A stretch of 64,000 nucleotides of DNA, from assembly GCA_016791045.1 (NCBI GenBank), contig JAEUNO010000020.1, positions 1-64,000 of the forward strand, read 5' to 3'. Origin of the DNA: Methyloversatilis sp. GTDB lineage: Bacteria > Pseudomonadota > Gammaproteobacteria > Burkholderiales > Rhodocyclaceae. The notes beneath the pieces are model-generated. The model did no database searches and was not told the origin of the DNA. It saw only the letters and a program-made list of their open reading frames with translations. This document shows positions 5,633 through 44,910 of the stretch, in pieces (within the stretch, counting starts at the first letter, position 1; each line of letters opens with the position of its first letter). Position numbers and translations under genes: made by a program.

Positions 5633-6514
5633 ATGCGACTGGGCGACGGGCGGGAAAGCGAAAACATCGAGGACCGCCGGGGTGCGCGCGGCGGCGGCAT
5701 GCTGGGTGGCGGCGGTCGCAAGATCGGTGTCGGCACCATCGTGCTGGCGCTGGTGGCGATGTATTTCGGTGTCGATCCGTCGGTGGTGCTCAATATGGGT
5801 GCCGGCCTTCCGCAGACGTCGCAGCAGGCGCCGGTGACCCCCGGGGTGCAGTCCACCGGACGGGCGGAAGACGATGCGCTGGCGCGTTTCACCGCACAGG
5901 TGCTGGCTGACACTGAGGACACGTGGAACGCGCTGTTCCGCGCCGGCGGCAAGCAATACCGCGAACCGAAACTGGTGCTCTACACCGGCGGCACGCAGAC
6001 CGCCTGCGGCACCGGGCAGGCCGCGATGGGGCCGTTCTACTGCCCGGGCGACGAGCGTGTCTATCTTGATCTCGACTTCTACCGCGACCTGCAGGCGCGC
6101 TTTGCCGCGCCGGGCGATTTTGCGCAGGCCTACGTGATCGCGCACGAAATCGGCCATCACGTGCAGCATCAGCTGGGCATTGCGGAGAAGGTGCAGGCCA
6201 CGAAGCAGCGCGTCAGCGAGCGCGACGCCAACCAGCTGCAGGTGCGCATGGAACTGCAGGCGGACTGCTTCGCCGGCATCTGGGCGCACCACGCCAACCG
6301 CTCGCGCGGCATTCTCGAACAGGGTGACATCGAAGAGGCACTGCGCGCCGCGTCCGCCATCGGCGACGACACGCTGCAGAAACAGGCGCAGGGCTATGTG
6401 GTGCCGGAAAGCTTCACCCACGGCAGCGCCGAACAGCGCATGCGCTGGTTCAGGCGCGGCCTGGACAGCGGCGAAATGAAGGCCTGCGACAGCTTCGGCG
6501 CACGCGCGCTTTAG
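5633..6514 (+). CDS. ypfJ: Putative neutral zinc metallopeptidase, YpfJ family
   Basis: This 293-residue protein has a glycine-rich N-terminus, one transmembrane helix (about 31-45) and a periplasmic zincin-like domain with HEIGHH at 171-176 (H171, E172, H175), the HExxH metal and catalytic motif. The family (PF04228) is annotated as putative neutral zinc metallopeptidase, and its physiological substrate is poorly known. The gene starts 44 nt after the kinase gene and may share its transcript. Its stop abuts a heptad-repeat block. Confidence 0.85.
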   Translation: MRLGDGRESENIEDRRGARGGGMLGGGGRKIGVGTIVLALVAMYFGVDPSVVLNMGAGLPQTSQQAPVTPGVQSTGRAEDDALARFTAQVLADTEDTWNALFRAGGKQYREPKLVLYTGGTQTACGTGQAAMGPFYCPGDERVYLDLDFYRDLQARFAAPGDFAQAYVIAHEIGHHVQHQLGIAEKVQATKQRVSERDANQLQVRMELQADCFAGIWAHHANRSRGILEQGDIEEALRAASAIGDDTLQKQAQGYVVPESFTHGSAEQRMRWFRRGLDSGEMKACDSFGARAL

Positions 6515-6515
6515 C

Positions 6516-6634
6516 AGATTCAAGATTCAAGATGCAAGACGCAAGACGCAAGACGCAAGACGCAAGACGCAAGACGCAAGACGCAAGGGAGGTACCGCGT
6601 GCCCCTTGAATCTTGCATCTTTCTTCTTGCATCT
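6516..6634. repeat. Inverted heptad-repeat element without a gene
   Basis: The left arm (6516-6588) is ten 7-bp units (AGATTCA twice, AGATGCA once, AGACGCA seven times) followed by AGG. The right arm (6604-6634) is the inverted form: four heptads plus AGG, exactly 31 nt, with a 15-nt spacer between. It sits between convergent genes. The right arm and outer flank (GC before the first heptad) match the blocks around the S23 gene at 10.0-10.5 kb, so I read it as a gene-less relative of that element. The seven identical AGACGCA units suggest expansion by slippage. Confidence 0.85.
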
Positions 6635-6639
6635 GCCTT

Positions 6640-7796: not shown

Positions 7797-8993
7797 ATGC
7801 CGAAATTCCCGTTCTGCCTGCGCCGTCTGCTGCCGGCCTTGCTGCTCGTTTGCGCGCACGCTGCATACGCCCTCGGCCCCGGCGAACTGGCAGTCATTGT
7901 CAATGTGTCGGATCCGGCGAGCGTGGAAACCGCCGCCCATTATCGCCAGCAGCGCGACATCCCGGCCGCCAACGTCATCGAGGTGAGCTTCCCGCACGAG
8001 CGCGGCGCGCTGTCGCGGGAAGAGTTCGAACGGGTGTACGCCGAGGTCGACGCAAGGCTGGCGCCCGGCATCAAGGCCTTCGCGCTGGCCTGGACGCGCC
8101 CGTGGCGCGCCGGCTGCATGAGCATCACCTCCGCTTTCGCATTCGGCTACGACGACAGCTTCTGTTCATCGACCTGCGGCCCGACGCGGCCGAGCGGCTA
8201 TTTCAACAACGGCCGCAACGCGCCCGGGAACGCCGCGATGCCCCGGCCCGCCATGCTGCTGGCGGGTGAATCGGTCGAGCAGGTGAAGCGCCTGATCGAC
8301 CGCGGCGTGGCCGCCGACTACAGCTATCCGAAAGGCACGGTCTACCTGGTGCGCACCGAAGACACGGCGCGCAATGTTCGCGCCTTGCTGTTCGACGAAA
8401 CGATGGCCCAGGTGCGCGGCCTGCAGTTCGCCAGCCCGAGGGCGGCCGAAGCGTTCGGCCAGCAGGACGTGATCGGCTATTTCACCGGCGCAGTGCGCGT
8501 GCCGGCACTGCCGACGCTGGGCTTTCTGCCGGGCGCGCCGGCCGACCACCTGACGTCGGTCGGCGGCACGCTGCTCGACAACACCGCGCAGATGAGCGCA
8601 CTCGAATGGCTGACGGCGGGCGCCACCGGCAGCTACGGCACGGTGATCGAGCCGTGCAACCACCTGCAGAAATTTCCCCATCCGGGCATCCTGATGAGCA
8701 TGTACGCGGAAGGCGACACGCTGATCGAGGCCTACTGGAAGAGCGTCGCCTGGCCGGGTGAGGGAGTGTTCATCGGCGAGCCGCTGGCGCGCCCGTTCGG
8801 CACCCGCGCCGTGCGGGACGAGGCGGGCTGGTGGGTCGAGTCGCATTCGGCCACCGGCCGGCGCGCGCTGATCGAAGTGGCGCGGAGCGTGGTCGGGCCG
8901 TATCGCGCGGTACAGCAGCTGATGCTGCCTGCGGGCTTTGCGCGGCAACGGTTGAAGGTCGACCGCGGTGTCGGCGCCGTCAGGGTGCGCTGA
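7797..8993 (+). CDS. TIGR03790-like exported protein of unknown function
   Basis: This protein of about 398 residues has a clear signal peptide (positively charged start, hydrophobic core [13 protein letters not shown] cleavage site near 25). The mature part has the features I associate with TIGR03790 proteins: [29 protein letters not shown], and a late [11 protein letters not shown] segment. No function is established. I chose the ATG at 7797 over an in-frame TTG at 7779 because the signal peptide begins there. The gene overlaps the end of fcl by 14 bp, tail to tail. Confidence 0.75.
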
Positions 8994-10065
8994 GGCCGGC
9001 CTGAAAGTCGCGGTACGCGCGCGAGAGGCCCTCGGCCAGACCGGTGCTGGCCTGCCACCCGATCGAATTGAGCCGCGTCACGTCCATCAGCTTGCGCGGC
9101 GTGCCGTCCGGCTTGGTGGTGTCGAACACCAGTTTGCCGTCGAAGCCGACCACCTTGCCGACGAGTTCGGCCAGCGCCCTGATCGTGACGTCCTCACCAA
9201 CGCCCACATTCACCAGCGGCGGCTCGAAGCGGCCGGTCTTCGACTCGTCGCTGCCCAGCAGGCTCGCGTACTTTTCGTCCGGCAGATTGATCAGGAAGAC
9301 GCAGGCGTCGGCCATGTCGTCGCTGTACAGGAATTCGCGCCGCGGCGTGCCGGTACCCCACAGGGAGATGCAGGATTCAAGATTCAAGTTGCAGGTGGCG
9401 CGGAGCTGTTCCTTGAGGTCGTCGGGGATGGGGCCATGCGCCGCCTCGTCGTGCTCGATGGCGGCCCAGTTGCGCTGCGACGCGAGTCTGGCGAGGTGGA
9501 ACTTGCGGATCATGGCCGGGATGACATGACTGTTCATCAGGCTGTAGTTGTCGCCCGGCCCGTACAGATTGGTCGGCATCACCGCCAGGTATTGCGTGCC
9601 GTACTGTCGGTTGTAGCTCCAGCACATCTCGATGCCGGCGATCTTGGCCAGCGCGTACGGCCGGTTCGTCGGTTCGAGCGGACCGGTCAGCAGGCAATCT
9701 TCGCGCATCGGCTGCGGCGCCAGCTTCGGATAGATGCAGCTCGAGCCAAGGAACATCAGCCGCGTGACGCCGTGCTTCCACGCGCTGTGGATCACGTTGG
9801 TCTGGATGACCAGGTTGTCGCGGATGAATTCGGCCGGGTAGCTGTTGTTGGCGACGATGCCGCCGACCTTCGCCGCGGCGAGGAACACGTACTCGGGCTT
9901 CTCGGTGGCGAAGAAGGCGTCGGTCGCGGCCGCGTCGGTCAGATCCAGCTCGGCGTGCGTACGGGTGACGAGGTTCGTGTAGCCCTTTGCTTCAAGGTTG
10001 CGCACGATGGCCGAGCCGACCAGGCCGCGGTGGCCCGCGACGTAGATGCAAGAGTCAAGATTCAA
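8980..10065 (-). CDS. fcl: GDP-L-fucose synthase (GDP-4-keto-6-deoxymannose epimerase/reductase)
   Basis: This 361-residue short-chain dehydrogenase makes GDP-L-fucose from the Gmd product. Visible are the NADP-binding GHRGLVGSA (11-19), the SSCIYPK segment, and Tyr137/Lys141 of the YxxxK catalytic pair (PYALAKIAG). The start is a TTG at 10065 that lies inside a heptad repeat, so the first seven residues (MNLDSCI) are repeat-encoded. No Shine-Dalgarno is obvious. A second repeat block at 9366-9395 encodes residues 225-233 (CNLNLESCI) in the loop before LWGTGTP, without breaking the frame. It is the last gene of the minus-strand run waaA-gmd-S23-fcl. Confidence 0.9.
9366..9395. repeat. Heptad-repeat block inside fcl
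   Basis: Four heptads (AGATGCA, GGATTCA, AGATTCA, AGTTGCA) plus GG lie within the fcl coding region and are read as CNLNLESCI. The block occupies a loop expected to be variable between GPIPDD and LWGTG, so the enzyme could tolerate it. Confidence 0.85.
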
Positions 10066-10074
10066 GATGCAAGG
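10044..10074. repeat. Left 31-nt heptad block of the S23 element
   Basis: Four heptads (AGATGCA, AGAGTCA, AGATTCA, AGATGCA) plus AGG span exactly 31 nt. The block overlaps the first codons and the TTG start of fcl and is inverted relative to the block at 10491-10521. Confidence 0.88.
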
Positions 10075-10091
10075 TCCGGAGCGGAGTGGGT

Positions 10092-10433
10092 CTATTTGAT
10101 CGAACGGATCAAGCCGTGAAGCATTTTCGAGATTTCTTCGGCTTCGCCAAGCCAGGCCCGGCCGGTCTCGCGGTCGATGTAGCCGATGTCCATGCCGATG
10201 TATATCTGCGTGCGAAGCTCGCCGGCGGAGCCCTTTGCATAGTAGAAGAACTGAGCCGCTTCCTTGCTGGAACCGCGTTCGTGCCCTTCAGCAATGTTCG
10301 ATGGCACGGAAAGACTGGAGCGGGTGATCTGGTCCCTAAACCCGAAGTCACGAAGATCGACCAGACCTTTGTAGATCGAGGCACTCAACCTCGCAGACCG
10401 CTTCCAGACCTCAAGATCCTCGAATCTGCTCAT
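10092..10433 (-). CDS. Four-helix-bundle protein, S23/IVP (Avd-like) family
   Basis: This 113-residue protein matches the 23S-rRNA intervening-sequence-protein family by [13 protein letters not shown] near the N-terminus, [19 protein letters not shown] in the middle and amphipathic helices throughout. Relatives include ORFs in rRNA intervening sequences and the Avd accessory protein of diversity-generating retroelements, both linked to nucleic-acid binding. Its own role is not established. The ATG at 10433 is preferred over the GTG at 10436. It is enclosed by inverted heptad blocks and lies 26 nt upstream of fcl. No reverse transcriptase, variable repeat or rRNA is nearby. Confidence 0.85.
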
Positions 10434-10490
10434 CACCGCGCCCCGATTTCACGAAGCACGATGACCGCAAAACCCGCATGGTCCGCCCTT

Positions 10491-10521
10491 CCTTGCACCT
10501 TGCACCTTGAATCTTGCATCT
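10491..10521. repeat. Right 31-nt heptad block of the S23 element
   Basis: On the minus strand this reads AGATGCA, AGATTCA, AGGTGCA, AGGTGCA plus AGG, 31 nt. It ends 4 nt after the gmd stop region and is inverted relative to 10044-10074. The outer flank, GC followed by CTT on the plus strand, matches the right arm of the element at 6604-6634. Confidence 0.88.
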
Positions 10522-10525
10522 GCCT

Positions 10526-11641
10526 TCATTCAAAGTGGTCGTAAGCCTTGAAGCCCGCCATCTTCACCAGCGCATCGCGCTTGGCGCTGGTGTAGTCGGC
10601 TTCCACCATTTCCTTCACCAGTTCGCGCAGCGTCGTCTTGGGCGTCCAGCCCAGCTTCTCGCGCGCCCGGGTCGGATCGCCGAGCAGAGTTTCGACTTCG
10701 GTCGGGCGGTAGTAGCGCGGATCGACCTTGACGATCACATCGCCCACCTTCGCTTTGGCGCGGTCGCCGGTGATCGCGGCGACGATGCCCACCTCCTGCT
10801 CGCCCTCGCCTTCGAAGCGGATCGTGATGCCCAGCTCGGCGGCGGCGAATTCGACGAACTGGCGCACGCTGTACTGCACGCCGGTGGCGATCACGAAGTC
10901 TTCCGCCACCGCCTGCTGCAGCATCAGCCACTGCATTTCGATGTAGTCGCGCGCATGGCCCCAATCGCGCAGCGCGCTCATGTTTCCGAGGTACAGGCAG
11001 TCCTGCAGCCCGAGCGCGATACGCGCGATGGCGCGCGTGATCTTGCGCGTGACGAAGGTTTCGCCGCGCACCGGTGACTCGTGGTTGAACAGGATGCCGT
11101 TGCAGGCGTAGATGCCGTACGCCTCGCGGTAATTGACGGTGATCCAGTAGGCGTAGAGCTTGGCGCAGGCGTACGGGCTGCGCGGATAGAAGGGCGTGGT
11201 TTCCTTCTGCGGGATTTCCTGCACCAGGCCATAGAGCTCGGAGGTCGAGGCCTGATAGAAGCGCGTCTTCTTTTCGAGCCCCAGGATGCGGATGGCTTCC
11301 AGGATGCGCAGCGCGCCGATGCCGTCGGCGTTGGCCGTGTATTCGGGCTCTTCGAAACTGACGGCCACGTGAGACTGGGCGGCCAGGTTGTAGATTTCGT
11401 CCGGCTGCACCGCCTGGATGATGCGCACCAGGCTGGTTGAATCGGTCAGGTCACCGTAGTGCAGGATGAACTTGCGGTTGTCGACGTGCGGGTCTTCGTA
11501 CAGGTGGTCGATGCGGTCGGTGTTGAAGAGCGAGGAGCGGCGCTTGATGCCGTGCACCTCGTAGCCCTTCTTCAGCAGGAATTCGGCGAGGTAGGCGCCG
11601 TCCTGGCCGGTCACGCCGGTGATGAGTGCGATTTTGGTCAT
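10526..11641 (-). CDS. gmd: GDP-mannose 4,6-dehydratase
   Basis: This 371-residue enzyme converts GDP-D-mannose to GDP-4-keto-6-deoxy-D-mannose, the substrate of Fcl. It has the NADP motif GVTGQDG (9-15), the catalytic segment ASTSELYG, Tyr157/Lys161 (SPYACAK) and the [11 protein letters not shown] cofactor-binding stretch typical of Gmd. The ATG at 11641 begins MTKIALITG; the longer reading to 11707 adds an unrelated tail. It follows waaA by 43 nt in the same direction, and the S23 element lies between it and fcl. Confidence 0.93.
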
Positions 11642-11684
11642 GGGCTTTGATCCGGTGTGAATGGCACGGGATGACAGCGCGCGA

Positions 11685-12977
11685 TTATCGCCGATGATCG
11701 TGCGCAAGCTGCTCGAGTCGCGCAGCGAGCAGCGGTTCGATCAGTGCCATGCAGCGTCCGGTGGCGCCCCGGTGCATGGCGGCAAACGCCCGGCCGGCGT
11801 CCGCCATGCGCTGTCTTGCCTGCGGATCGTCGAGCAGGGCAACGACCGTCGACGCCATCTCCTCCGGTCCGGTGGCCCGTGCGGCGGCACCGGCCGCCAG
11901 TGCGTCGTCGGTGGCCTGGGCGAAATTGAACATGTGCGGTCCGACGACGACCGGGCAGCCCGCCGCGCACGCTTCGATCAGATTCTGCCCGCCCAGCGGC
12001 AGCCAGCTGCCGCCGATGACGGCGACGTCCGCCAGCGCGTACCAGGCGACCATTTCGCCCATCGAGTCGCCGAGCCACACCGTGTCACGGTCGCCGGGCA
12101 GCGTGCCTTCGCTGCGCCGAATCGCGTGCCAACCGCATCCGGCCACGATGCCGGCCACCTCGTCGAAGCGCTGCGGATGCCTCGGCACCAGTGCGATGAG
12201 CACATCGTCCGGCAGCCGTGCCTGCAGCGCCGGCAGCAGCAGCACCTCTTCGCCGTCGCGCGTGCTGGCCAGCAGCACGATGCGGCGGGCGCCGAGTGCC
12301 GCGCGCCACCGTTGGCCGAGCGCGAGCTGATCCGGAGGCGGTGCCAGGTCGAACTTGAGATTGCCGGTGACCGTGACGTTGCGCGCACCCAGCCCGCTCA
12401 GCCGTGCGGCGTCGGCAGCGGTCTGTGCGGCGATGCCCGACAGCGCATCGAGCATCGTGCCGGCCAGTGCGGGCATCCTTGCGTAGCGACGCGCCGACCG
12501 GTCCGACAGGCGGGCGTTCGCCAGCACCACCGGAACGCCGACGCGACGGCACTCGGCAATCAGGTTGGGCCACAGTTCGGTTTCCATCAGGATGCCGACG
12601 GCCGGGCGCCACGCACGCAGGAAGGCGCGCTGCGCCCACGGCAGATCCCAGGGCAGCCAGGCAAGGGCCACCGTGTCGCCATAGAGTGCCTGCGCCGTGG
12701 CCCGCCCGGTCGCGGTCGTCTGGGTCAGCAGGATGCGCGTGTCGGGATGCGCCTGGCGCAGCGCCGCGATCAACGGCTGCGCGGCGCGTGTTTCGCCGAC
12801 CGACACCGCGTGTATCCAGAGGGTCGATGCCGCGGGTTCGACGCGGAAGCGCCCCAGCCGCTGGGCGACATCGTGGGCATACCCCGATTCCCGTCGGGCG
12901 CGCCACGCCAGACGCAGCAGCACGGCGGGCAGTGCGACCAGCCAGATCAGGGTGTACAGGACGCGATTCAGGGGCAC
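11685..12977 (-). CDS. waaA: 3-deoxy-D-manno-octulosonic acid (Kdo) transferase
   Basis: This 430-residue inner-membrane glycosyltransferase adds Kdo to lipid IVA in LPS core synthesis. It has an N-terminal membrane anchor (about 5-22), an N-terminal domain with [15 protein letters not shown] (the catalytic Glu region), ETELWPNLI, and a C-terminal CMP-Kdo-binding domain with [14 protein letters not shown] and GPHMFNF, all family-typical. The start is a GTG at 12977 with no strong ribosome-binding site. It is divergent from the CDP-sugar operon across 172 bp and heads the minus-strand run to gmd. Confidence 0.92.
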
Positions 12978-27103: not shown

Positions 27104-29062
27104 ATGTGTGCAATTGCAGGACTGTGGTCGCCGCGCGCCGACCCCGCTGATGCTGTGTTGCAGGCCATGGCGGCGACCATGCTGCATCGCGGTCCGGATG
27201 ACGGCGGTACGTGGATCGACAGCGGGACCGGACTGGGTCTGGCGCACCGGCGGCTGGCCATCGTCGACCTGTCGCCGGCGGGCCATCAGCCGATGCAGTC
27301 GCGCTGCGGCCGTTACGTGATCGCCTTCAACGGGGAAATCTACAATCACGCCGCGCTGCGCGACGCGCTGGACGCGCAGCGCGGCGGGGCCACGCCGTGG
27401 CGTGGCCATTCCGACACCGAAACGCTGCTCGAGGCGTTTGCCGAGTGGGGTTTCGAAGCCACGCTGCAGCGCTGCGTCGGCATGTTTGCGCTGGCGCTGT
27501 GGGACCGCCAGGCACGAGTGCTGCAGCTGGCACGCGACCGGCTTGGCGAGAAGCCGCTCTACTACGGTCGTGCAGGCAATGGCGATCTGGTGTTCGCATC
27601 CGAATTGAAGGCGTTCGCCGCGCTGCCCGGCTGGTCGCCCGAAATCGACCGCCAGGCGGTATCGCTGTTCATGCGCTACGCCTGCGTGCCGGCACCGTGG
27701 TCGATCTACCGCGGCATCCGCAAGCTGGAGCCGGGCGCGACGGTGCGCTATGACGCGGCCGACGCCGAGCCGGTGATGGGGCGCTACTGGCATGCGCTGT
27801 CCGCCATCGAGGCGGCGCGCGCGCAGCCGTTTTCCGGCTCGCTGCAGGACGCGGCCGATACGCTGGAGCAGCTGCTCGGGGACACGATGCGCCTGCAGAG
27901 CATGGCCGACGTACCGCTCGGCGCCTTTCTGTCGGGCGGCATCGATTCGTCGACCGTGGTGGCGCTGATGCAGAAGCTGGGTGGCGCGCCGGTGCGCACC
28001 TTCAGCATCGGTTTCAACGAAGAGGGGTACGACGAGGCGCAGCATGCAGCGGCCGTGGCGCGTCATCTGGGCACGCAGCACACTGAACAGTACGTGACGG
28101 CCGACGAGGCGCGCGCGGTCATTCCGCTGCTGCCGCAGCTGTACGACGAGCCGTTCGGGGATTCGTCGCAGATCCCGACCTATCTGGTGTCGAAGCTGGC
28201 GCGCGGACATGTCACGGTGAGCCTGTCGGGCGATGGCGGTGACGAGCTGTTCGGCGGCTACAACCGCTACTTCATCGCGCAGGCGCTGTGGCGTCGCCTG
28301 TCCGGTCTGCCGACGCCGGTGCGGGCGCAGGCCGCGACGATGATCCGCCTGCTGCGGCCGGTCACCTGGTCGAAGCTGCTCAAGCCCTTCATGGGCCTGT
28401 TGCCGGCCCGCTACAACTACGCCAATCCGGGCGACAAGCTGCACAAGCTGGCCGAAGTGCTCGCGCTGGTCGAGCCGCGCGCGCTGTACGACCGACTGGT
28501 TCGCTTCTGGGAATGGGACATCTGCCCCGGCGTCGAGCCGCCGGACGCGATGGCCGCCGATGCCGGCTGGGACCGCTTCGGTGGCAACGACCGCTTCGTC
28601 GACGCGATGATGTATGCGGACACGGTGAGCTATCTGCCGGACGACATCCTGGTCAAGGTCGACCGCGCGTCGATGGCGGTCAGTCTGGAATCGCGCGTAC
28701 CGATGCTCGACCACCGCATCCTCGAATTCGCATGGCGCCTGCCGGACAGCGCGCGCGCATCGGGTGGCGTGGGCAAGCGCGTGCTGCGCGAAGTGCTGGC
28801 GCGCCACGTACCGACCGCGCTGACCGACCGGCCGAAGATGGGGTTCGGCATTCCGATCGGCGAATGGCTGCGTGGCCCGCTGCGTGCCTGGGCGGATGCG
28901 CTGCTCGACCCGCAGCGCCTGCGCGCCGACGGCTATCTGGCGGCCGATCTGGTGCGCGCCCGCTGGGAGGAGCATCTGTCCGGCCGGCGCAACTGGGAGT
29001 ATTCGATCTGGAACGCGCTGATGTTCCAGTCCTGGCTGGAGCACTGGCATGGCAAGCGGTAA
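27104..29062 (+). CDS. asnB: Asparagine synthase (glutamine-hydrolysing), AsnB type
   Basis: This 652-residue enzyme has an N-terminal class II glutaminase with nucleophile Cys2 (MCAIAGLWSP) and a C-terminal synthase domain with the PP-loop SGGIDSS (277-283). Classical AsnB makes asparagine. Members inside glycan loci often amidate a uronic acid or other carboxylate, so a role in glycan amidation is possible but inferred only from context. It overlaps the following glycosyltransferase by 14 nt. Confidence 0.9.
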   Translation: MCAIAGLWSPRADPADAVLQAMAATMLHRGPDDGGTWIDSGTGLGLAHRRLAIVDLSPAGHQPMQSRCGRYVIAFNGEIYNHAALRDALDAQRGGATPWRGHSDTETLLEAFAEWGFEATLQRCVGMFALALWDRQARVLQLARDRLGEKPLYYGRAGNGDLVFASELKAFAALPGWSPEIDRQAVSLFMRYACVPAPWSIYRGIRKLEPGATVRYDAADAEPVMGRYWHALSAIEAARAQPFSGSLQDAADTLEQLLGDTMRLQSMADVPLGAFLSGGIDSSTVVALMQKLGGAPVRTFSIGFNEEGYDEAQHAAAVARHLGTQHTEQYVTADEARAVIPLLPQLYDEPFGDSSQIPTYLVSKLARGHVTVSLSGDGGDELFGGYNRYFIAQALWRRLSGLPTPVRAQAATMIRLLRPVTWSKLLKPFMGLLPARYNYANPGDKLHKLAEVLALVEPRALYDRLVRFWEWDICPGVEPPDAMAADAGWDRFGGNDRFVDAMMYADTVSYLPDDILVKVDRASMAVSLESRVPMLDHRILEFAWRLPDSARASGGVGKRVLREVLARHVPTALTDRPKMGFGIPIGEWLRGPLRAWADALLDPQRLRADGYLAADLVRARWEEHLSGRRNWEYSIWNALMFQSWLEHWHGKR

Positions 29063-44246: not shown

Positions 44247-44289
44247 CCGTCCTTGCGATGCCGGCCGCAGTCCGAGACGGTCCGACGCT

Positions 44290-44910
44290 TCAGCCCTTCG
44301 GCGCCGCGTAGCTGGTCATCAGGTTGCGGTAGTCGGGGATGTGGTTGGACAGCAGCGTGGCCAGGCCTTCGACGTCGTTGCGCCAGTCGCGGTGCAGTTC
44401 GCACGCCACGCCGAACCAGTTGATCAGTTGCGCGCCGGCCTGCGACATGCGGTCCCAGGCGGAATGGCGGGCGATGTCGTTGAAGGTGCCGGAGGCGTCG
44501 GTGACGACGAATACGTCGAACCCTTCCTCGATCGCCGACAGCGCCGGAAAGGCGACGCACACTTCGGTGACCACGCCGGCGATGATGAGCTGCCTGCGGC
44601 CGGTGGCCTTGATCGCCTTGACGAAGTCCTCGTTGTCCCAGGCGTTGATCTGGCCCGGGCGGGCGATGTAGGGCGCGTCGGGGAACAGGCTCTTCAGTTC
44701 CGGCATCAGCGGGCCGTTCGGGCCCTGTTCGAAGCTGGTGGTCAGGATGGTCGGCAGCTGGAAGTACTTCGCCAGGTCAGCGGTGGCCAGCACGTTGTTG
44801 CGGAACTTGTCCGGATCGATGTCGCGCACCAGCGACAGCAGACCGGCCTGATGGTCCACCAGCAGCATCACGGCGTTGTCCTTGTCCAGCTTCTTGTACG
44901 GCTTGTTCAT
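44290..44910 (-). CDS. Isochorismatase-family hydrolase (YcaC-like)
   Basis: This 206-residue cysteine hydrolase has AVMLLVDHQAGLL with the catalytic Asp, ARPGQINAWDNEDF and GVVTEVCVAFPALSA with the nucleophilic Cys, as in YcaC. Substrates of YcaC proteins are unknown. AAGGAG lies 7 nt before the ATG. It lies just downstream of the pirin gene in the same direction (87 bp apart) and may share its control. Confidence 0.88.
   Translation of the reverse strand: MNKPYKKLDKDNAVMLLVDHQAGLLSLVRDIDPDKFRNNVLATADLAKYFQLPTILTTSFEQGPNGPLMPELKSLFPDAPYIARPGQINAWDNEDFVKAIKATGRRQLIIAGVVTEVCVAFPALSAIEEGFDVFVVTDASGTFNDIARHSAWDRMSQAGAQLINWFGVACELHRDWRNDVEGLATLLSNHIPDYRNLMTSYAAPKG

Follow-up and report, generated by a model that had tools for sequence, protein, structure and literature searches.

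Background

The closest described counterparts of the element reported here are the intervening sequences (IVSs) of 23S rRNA genes that carry a gene for an S23 protein (S23p). In Coxiella this IVS is 428-444 nt long, has heptamers of the form GACAGAT upstream of S23p and is excised by RNase III (PMC4990558). According to the same source, IVS stem-loops took the place of small loops in rRNA helices, and an earlier proposal holds that the IVS is a mobile element whose ORF serves its mobility. In Coxiella S23p is apparently not made and its ORF is under reductive evolution (PMC4990558); both argue against the protein being needed in that organism.

Several families of dispersed repeats also bear comparison. 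In the REPIN/RAYT systems, dispersed inverted hairpin pairs occur together with a single gene that is flanked by the same hairpins and encodes RAYT, a Y1 HUH transposase. The STRRs of cyanobacteria are short tandem heptanucleotide repeats. Heptads of the sequence GGGAATC, which form quadruplexes and are preferentially arranged in four units, have been described from Xanthomonas, along with related repeats from Nostoc (Rehm 2015, PMC4692102); two Xanthomonas genomes contain 70 and 75 convergent pairs of them, reported there as generally lacking an association with mobile elements. Likewise, TAACTGA repeats are known from Beggiatoaceae, for which a repeat-binding protein has been suggested as a possible mobile element (PMC4679880). 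The main texts of both papers make no mention of S23 or 23S. Among the entries listed by our search of the open-access literature, with subscription journals mostly outside its scope, none was seen to bring S23 genes together with inverted heptad arrays and dispersed heptads. What had been put forward before amounts to heptamers in one IVS and the mobility of IVSs, a general link between S23 and heptads not being found in the sources covered.

Results and discussion

The S23 element of the window

The window is the whole stretch of 64,000 nucleotides analysed here, from Methyloversatilis sp. (assembly GCA_016791045.1, contig JAEUNO010000020.1); its relevant features are collected in Table 1. 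A sequence-only reading had described one S23 gene enclosed by inverted 31-nt blocks, and both the arms and the match of the encoded protein to PF05635 (114 bits; cut-off 33.8) bear this out. Read inward, arm 1 is AGATGCA AGAGTCA AGATTCA AGATGCA AGG and arm 2 is AGATGCA AGATTCA AGGTGCA AGGTGCA AGG; the consensus AGATKCA proposed for the units holds for five of the eight and fails for AGAGTCA and the two copies of AGGTGCA. These terminal inverted repeats are complementary at 87% of positions (27/31) and spaced by 416 nt, and when the element is folded as RNA they pair outermost (z -4.4; 0 of 100 shuffles equally stable). The S23 gene fills most of the inter-arm space and matches PF05635 alone, no transposase being recognised from this gene. 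It is the sole PF05635 match found in the genome (47 contigs, 92% complete), and the best named relatives are from Methyloversatilis, at 97% and 96% identity.

Table 1. Coordinates of the S23 element, its neighbours and related heptad arrays in the window
Feature	Position	Strand	Remarks
Gene-less heptad hairpin	6514..6636 (also given as 6516-6634)		two convergent genes on either side; arms at 6514-6550 and 6600-6636
fcl (GDP-L-fucose synthase), host gene	8980..10065	-	NF047922, 461 bits in two stretches, under the model cut-off of 500
Lone four-unit heptad block	9366..9393	+	inside fcl; units read in frame
Whole S23 element	10044..10521		478 bp; between gmd and fcl
Arm 1	10044..10074	+	four 7-nt units plus AGG, 31 nt
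S23 (four helix bundle protein) gene	10092..10436	-	114 aa; GTG start, ATG one codon later
Arm 2	10491..10521	-	four 7-nt units plus AGG, 31 nt; inverted relative to arm 1
gmd (GDP-mannose 4,6-dehydratase), host gene	10526..11707	-	opposite side of the element; TIGR01472, 595 bits, cut-off 415

The start region of fcl overlaps arm 1. Scanning the window for repeats of periods 4-12 at a threshold of 18/21 lag matches returned only 6515-6590, 10491-10521 and one period-6 stretch, with arm 1 below this threshold. The lone block inside fcl has no inverted partner in 9340-9440; around it the Fcl matches of several relatives skip about 35 residues, those of G203 and G205:C9 being of full length.

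The S23 protein

The best solved relative of the window S23 protein is XCC0516 (PDB 2gsc, five chains), presumably from Xanthomonas campestris, as would fit its locus name. A structure of S23p from that species, cited in PMC4990558, is a homopentamer of four-helix bundles. In an alignment of 95 sequences, which omits five loci with in-frame stops (L068, L086, L093, L119 and L123), the strongly conserved residues include W11, Q36, R39, S43, N47, A49, E50, G51, S70 and E73 (window numbering). For dN/dS, five pairs could be scored and five further ones were saturated. The window S23 gene gave ratios of 0.09 and 0.12 against two Methyloversatilis copies and 0.12 against L056, and a second S23 type gave 0.07-0.08 in two pairs; in the scorable pairs the gene is under purifying selection.

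Inverted heptad arms around S23 genes

Three samples were used: the 80 closest relatives in named genomes, of which two without a full flank were dropped to leave 78; 29 loci found with Pfam in 199 genomes of the family; and 17 of 20 S23-bearing plasmid records, mostly cyanobacterial, with three further records from Riemerella left out. Matching inverted arms within 130 nt of S23 were found at 55/78, 22/29 and 11/17 loci respectively, that is at 88 of the 124 in total. This disposes of the possibility, raised with the sequence-only reading, that S23 genes are rarely so flanked. The controls gave much lower counts: mismatched locus pairs 25/496, direct orientation 22/124, non-S23 ORFs of 120 aa or more at the S23 loci 2/264 (with a period-7 array in a flank in 22/264) and random intervals 0/195. 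Thirty-six loci lie below the arm threshold, which misses some real arms (visible ones at L148) and admits some that are not heptads (L110-L113). Four of the family matches, which are under the Pfam cut-off (L151-L154), have no arms. The samples include near-duplicates, L132 and L155 being identical, L247 and L258 99% identical, and L083 and L084 98% identical over the stretch compared.

Strong periodicity in the flanks (16/21) was of period 7 at 87 of the 124 loci and of period 8 at 11, with every other period from 4 to 13 at no more than one locus; among 76 loci with arms the best period was 7 in 68. The median length of the armed elements is about 461 nt, with a 5-95% range of 408-562 (76 loci). 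At 18/21 the arrays cluster within 150 nt of S23, with 22 in 97 and 27 in 99 flanks, as against at most three in any farther 150-nt bin; these positional counts, and a comparison of periods 4-14, omit ten family loci (L143, L146-L154) that tblastn had missed and that were restored by Pfam coordinates for the 124-locus counts.

The sequence of the unit varies by locus, and includes CAAGGTG, AAAGGTC, GTAAGCT, AAGTTGA, GGGAACA, AGGAGTC and GTGTAGG among others. What is kept is an AG locked to the phase of the repeat, present in 112 of 145 arms, whereas column permutation gave 62 on average and 73 at most; these were arms already known to be periodic, from 94 loci out of 115 in all, including 16 of the 17 plasmid loci. 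The strand that leads into the element carries more G than C in 130 of the 145. At L092, L094 and L114 the arm period is 8. The arrays of L243 and L138 are in direct orientation; in L138 CAAG-type arrays at 1440-1500 and 1840-1890 flank S23 in the same orientation, unlike those at most loci.

Elements of this build are found in several phyla and at sites that are unrelated, with S23 standing next to gene pairs as different as gmd-fcl, guaB-guaA, cas6-cas4, cas10-cmr3 and nrdB-nrdA, or within 23S rRNA. In the cyanobacterial plasmids L243, L246 and L255 the S23 elements lie in CRISPR operons, in the orders cas6-S23-cas4 (type I-D in L246) and cas10-S23-cmr3 (type III-B). No S23 match was obtained among 50,697 phage records.

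S23 elements in 23S rRNA genes and comparison with other systems

Four of 132 loci checked, L132, L155, L144 and L251, lie inside 23S rRNA genes; L132 and L155 come from different contigs of a single genome, and Rfam confirms the location for L132, L144 and L251. From the surrounding sequence we read the insertion site as probably helix 45. The IVS arms are AGAGGAC AGAAGAC AGATGAC AGATGAC AGA in L132, AGAGGAC GGATGAC AGAGGAC GGAGGAC AGA in L251 and AGGATTC AGGTTTC AGGGTAC AGGAATC in L144. Since these three IVSs carry heptad arms, they have a plan as well as a gene in common with the window unit: in both, an S23 gene lies within complementary arms capable of forming a stem, L132 and L251 have arms of four heptads like those of the window unit, and the 478 bp of the latter compare with the length of the Coxiella IVS. 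They differ in that the window unit lies between the protein genes gmd and fcl, and in that the window genome has gene-less copies as well. The window element may be viewed as an IVS outside rRNA.

The likeness to the heptanucleotide repeats of Xanthomonas, Nostoc, Beggiatoaceae and the cyanobacterial STRRs resides in the 7-nt unit and the largely intergenic placement, the unit sequences themselves being different; the Xanthomonas and Nostoc heptads also share the preference for four units with the window arms, and those of Xanthomonas occur in inverted pairs. REPIN/RAYT systems have a similar layout of hairpins and gene, but the gene here is S23, and there is no gene for an HUH Y1 transposase between the repeats. 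With respect to the S23/Avd likeness suggested earlier, its S23 side is upheld by a score of 109.7 bits on TIGR02436, whereas Avd of the diversity-generating retroelements (DGRs) is a distant small helical relative only: the window protein has no match to the DGR Avd model at E 0.1, and the cyanobacterial S23 of L246 reaches 28 bits on it (cut-off 80). In contrast to a DGR, the window unit has no space for a reverse transcriptase beside S23 between its arms. A function shared with Avd has a weak sequence link in its favour and was not upheld. On the plasmid L298 a DGR (reverse transcriptase and Avd) and an S23 element occur together (10186-10539, 44265-44633), the S23 element with two heptad arrays and the DGR with no strong one next to it. 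A 50-kb stretch of pANA02 has only two strong period-7 arrays, both beside S23 and none beside avd.

Different states of the same site in related genomes

Comparing empty and filled sites in close relatives, as had been proposed for the window unit, revealed differing states at guaB-guaA, gmd-fcl, 6516-6634 and cas6-cas4. One series comes from guaB-guaA, a housekeeping pair identified by IMP dehydrogenase and GMP synthase models over their cut-offs. In five of the 13 genomes of the genus (G152, G199, G200, G204 and G205) an S23 element with GGGGCTG-like units lies between these genes; in six (G000, G005, G182, G201, G202 and G203) there is no S23, and inverted CAAG arrays flank a terminator-like hairpin; G070 and G118 have neither S23 nor arrays. 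A second, partial guaB-guaA copy on G205:C51 was too short for scoring. At the site of the gene-less hairpin 6516-6634, CAAG hairpins are found in G000, G201, G203 and G205, and GGGGCTA-like hairpins in G118, G182, G199 and G200; G005, G204 and G202 have other sequence there, G070 has 30 nt and G152 one side only. The other sequences in G204, G005 and G202 (L235, L236 and L241) are GC-rich, intergenic and inverted-looking.

Between gmd and fcl, G000, G203, G205:C9 and G182 (at 2.32 Mb) carry the element, whereas L160, L161, L162, L163, L168 and L169 lack it; L170 is masked there. The junctions without the element are orthologous or paralogous, the copies in G205 and G182 being paralogues. Both genes, gmd and fcl, are present at 13 of the 126 loci that were examined, and in 12 of these, from Methyloversatilis, Thiobacillus, Sideroxydans, Gallionella and a Nitrosomonadales MAG, S23 lies between the two genes. 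Because this order recurs across betaproteobacterial genera and the element-free copies of G205 and G182 are paralogous, we rejected the gmd-fcl site as stand-alone proof of movement; transfer of the genes as a block could explain part of its pattern.

Farther afield, cas6-S23-cas4 of an Anabaena 90 plasmid and an S23-free relative have flanks 98.4% and 99.6% identical. This pair was rejected as an exact empty site, as the S23-free relative carries another insert there; that insert (L300, about 1015-1287) has inverted ends resembling GTAGGTTGGGTT. Similarly, nrdB-S23-nrdA in Nostoc edaphicum is 85% identical to the S23-free arrangement in Calothrix NIES-4105. At the gmd-fcl, guaB-guaA, cas6-cas4 and nrdB-nrdA junctions no target-site duplication was clear by eye, and the alternative alleles carry other sequence.

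Gene-less hairpins and dispersed arrays

Dispersed tandem 7-nt units occur in the window genome. The pattern CAAGANNCAAGANNC has 49 matches there (42 and 7 by strand) as against none for the reversed control, and many of them form inverted pairs with short loops, on contigs C2, C5, C8, C9, C11 (two) and C24, to which the pairs at window 6514-6636 and in the guaB-guaA gap on C41 are to be added; some arrays, for instance on contig C7, have no partner. The gene-less version of the unit that had been proposed at 6516-6634 is real, although the array on its left runs to about ten units, longer than a 31-nt block. When six gene-less hairpins were folded as single-stranded DNA, z ranged between -2.65 and -8.34, and from 0 to 4 of 200 shuffles were equally stable. 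The gene-less copy L025 has 15 nt inward from the arm in common with the S23 unit, a hint that it may have originated by internal deletion; other loops differ. Very long heptad arrays are seen at G203:C17 882-1842 and at G000:C21 from 5223 to the contig end (L005); as this contig ends inside one, such arrays may break assemblies. The Nostoc plasmid L299 has a gene-less inverted pair of AAGGCAG heptads (28495-28627), and an S23 gene some 4 kb away has arms of GGGAACA.

The dispersed arrays were also compared with the type of S23. In 36 genomes, chosen by hand-picking 37 of the 80 closest loci and leaving out L110, five or more CAAG matches outside the S23 flanks were present in 12 of the 16 whose S23 is of CAAG type and in 6 of the 20 whose S23 is of another type (p 0.018 by Fisher's test and 0.0045 by a rank test, kinship being ignored in both); a looser class rule that included S23's own arrays gave 17 versus 19 genomes and p 0.0004, and the tightened version is the one reported. 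Across the 199 genomes of the family, 23 had any CAAG match and six had at least five: G000, G116 and G182 with S23, four of the five matches in G182 being its own S23 arms, and G005, G147 and G149, in which S23 was not found (3/29 versus 3/170). S23 is present in 8 of the 13 genomes of the genus. The matches there number 195 in G203, 61 in G000, 28 in G201, 16 in G205, 9 in G005, 7 in G204, 5 in G182, 2 in G199, one each in G202 and G152 and zero in three genomes, counts that overstate the number of elements because matches overlap in long arrays.

The sequence-only reading would have been weakened by heptads spreading in genomes devoid of S23, and this is partly what we see: no S23 was found in G005 (a single contig, 99% complete; 9 matches) or G201 (93% complete; 28 matches). 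As these two genomes keep their heptads, arrays can persist without a resident S23 gene. Arrays of GGGRYTR are found in G199 and G200, whose S23 is of that type, and in G182 and G118, which are without it; they are absent from G204, G205 and G152, all with that S23 type (reversed control 0-2 per genome). For the GGGGCTG type, heptads and S23 were not found to correspond strictly within the genus.

Nature of the S23 elements

Taken together, we consider that the window unit is probably a copy of a mobile element that is widespread, about 460 nt long and made up of two inverted arrays of 7-nt units around a single S23 gene. The best reading of the comparisons would be that S23 elements are mobile elements without a transposase, with the rRNA IVSs and many dispersed heptads as their forms or relics, and their recurrence at differing sites, sometimes in rRNA genes, suggests one source for several short-repeat families. 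The original idea of a transposon-like unit with S23 as its sole protein accords with the inverted arms of the 88 loci, the variable sites and the dispersed hairpins; that S23 itself drives the movement is a step that we infer. The mobile-element reading is weakened by the 36 loci that fail the arm threshold, by the persistence of heptads without S23, by the uneven match of GGGRYTR arrays to S23 type, by the period-7 arrays beside 22 of 264 other ORFs, by arms of period 8 or in direct orientation, by possible block transfer at gmd-fcl, by the apparent lack of S23p in Coxiella and by the want of a clear target-site duplication.

The most serious competitor, which we regard as rather unlikely, is that heptad hairpins spread independently of S23, by slippage or by template switching at hairpins, S23 being a passenger that settled in a loop. 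Arrays in genomes where S23 was not found (G005, G201, G147 and G149), unit numbers that vary up to the very long array of G203:C17, and the terminator-like hairpin that takes the place of S23 between the guaB-guaA arrays of six genomes are all in keeping with it. Yet one gene family lies between inverted arms in several phyla despite differing heptads, which other ORFs do in only 2 of 264 cases, and the purifying selection seen on S23 where it could be scored disfavours a mere passenger. A second possibility, that the unit is immobile and its arms form an RNase III stem for processing RNA or regulating an S23 gene of use to the host, would account for the stable fold of the paired arms and the conservation of S23, and has a precedent in the excision of IVSs by RNase III (PMC4990558); it is improbable in view of the unrelated genes that S23 adjoins, its presence or absence among relatives and the existence of gene-less copies. 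That the arrays are G-quadruplexes or other structural repeats selected for DNA structure, with S23 incidental, draws on the quadruplex-forming, preferentially four-unit GGGAATC heptads (Rehm 2015, PMC4692102), but the window units AGATTCA and AGATGCA have no G runs and yet keep the 7-nt period, the four units and the inversion. For these units we rejected quadruplex formation as the general cause, and the structural reading as a whole seems very improbable.

If the S23 elements are mobile, the S23 protein, whose solved relative is a pentamer of four-helix bundles, would bind the arms, probably by recognising an AG every 7 nt, the bound form being a hairpin in RNA or in single-stranded DNA. 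It would carry this hairpin to new sites, mostly gaps between genes, from a stop to the next start, or the loops of hairpins. Cutting and joining might be performed by host enzymes or by an as yet unrecognised activity, and the possible routes include RNA, single-stranded DNA hairpins and template switching by the host. The gene-less hairpins could then be non-autonomous passengers moved in trans, or deletion relics. In its broadest form we offer the proposal only tentatively: a new class of transposase-less mobile elements, present in at least Pseudomonadota, Cyanobacteriota and Bacteroidota, may use a pentameric S23 that reads AG-phased, otherwise drifting heptads to mobilise its own and gene-less hairpins into intergenic gaps and rRNA loops, and may be the common source of IVSs and of the heptads of cyanobacteria, Xanthomonas and Beggiatoaceae.

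Implications

Were this correct, the rRNA IVSs, the S23 proteins and the dispersed heptads of bacteria would become one subject, and the origin of heptad repeats, left open in PMC4692102 and PMC4679880, would fall within it. S23 would gain a testable role, and its placement beside CRISPR, purine synthesis and sugar nucleotide genes would be explained. More generally, the S23 elements would point to movement of DNA or RNA without a known transposase.
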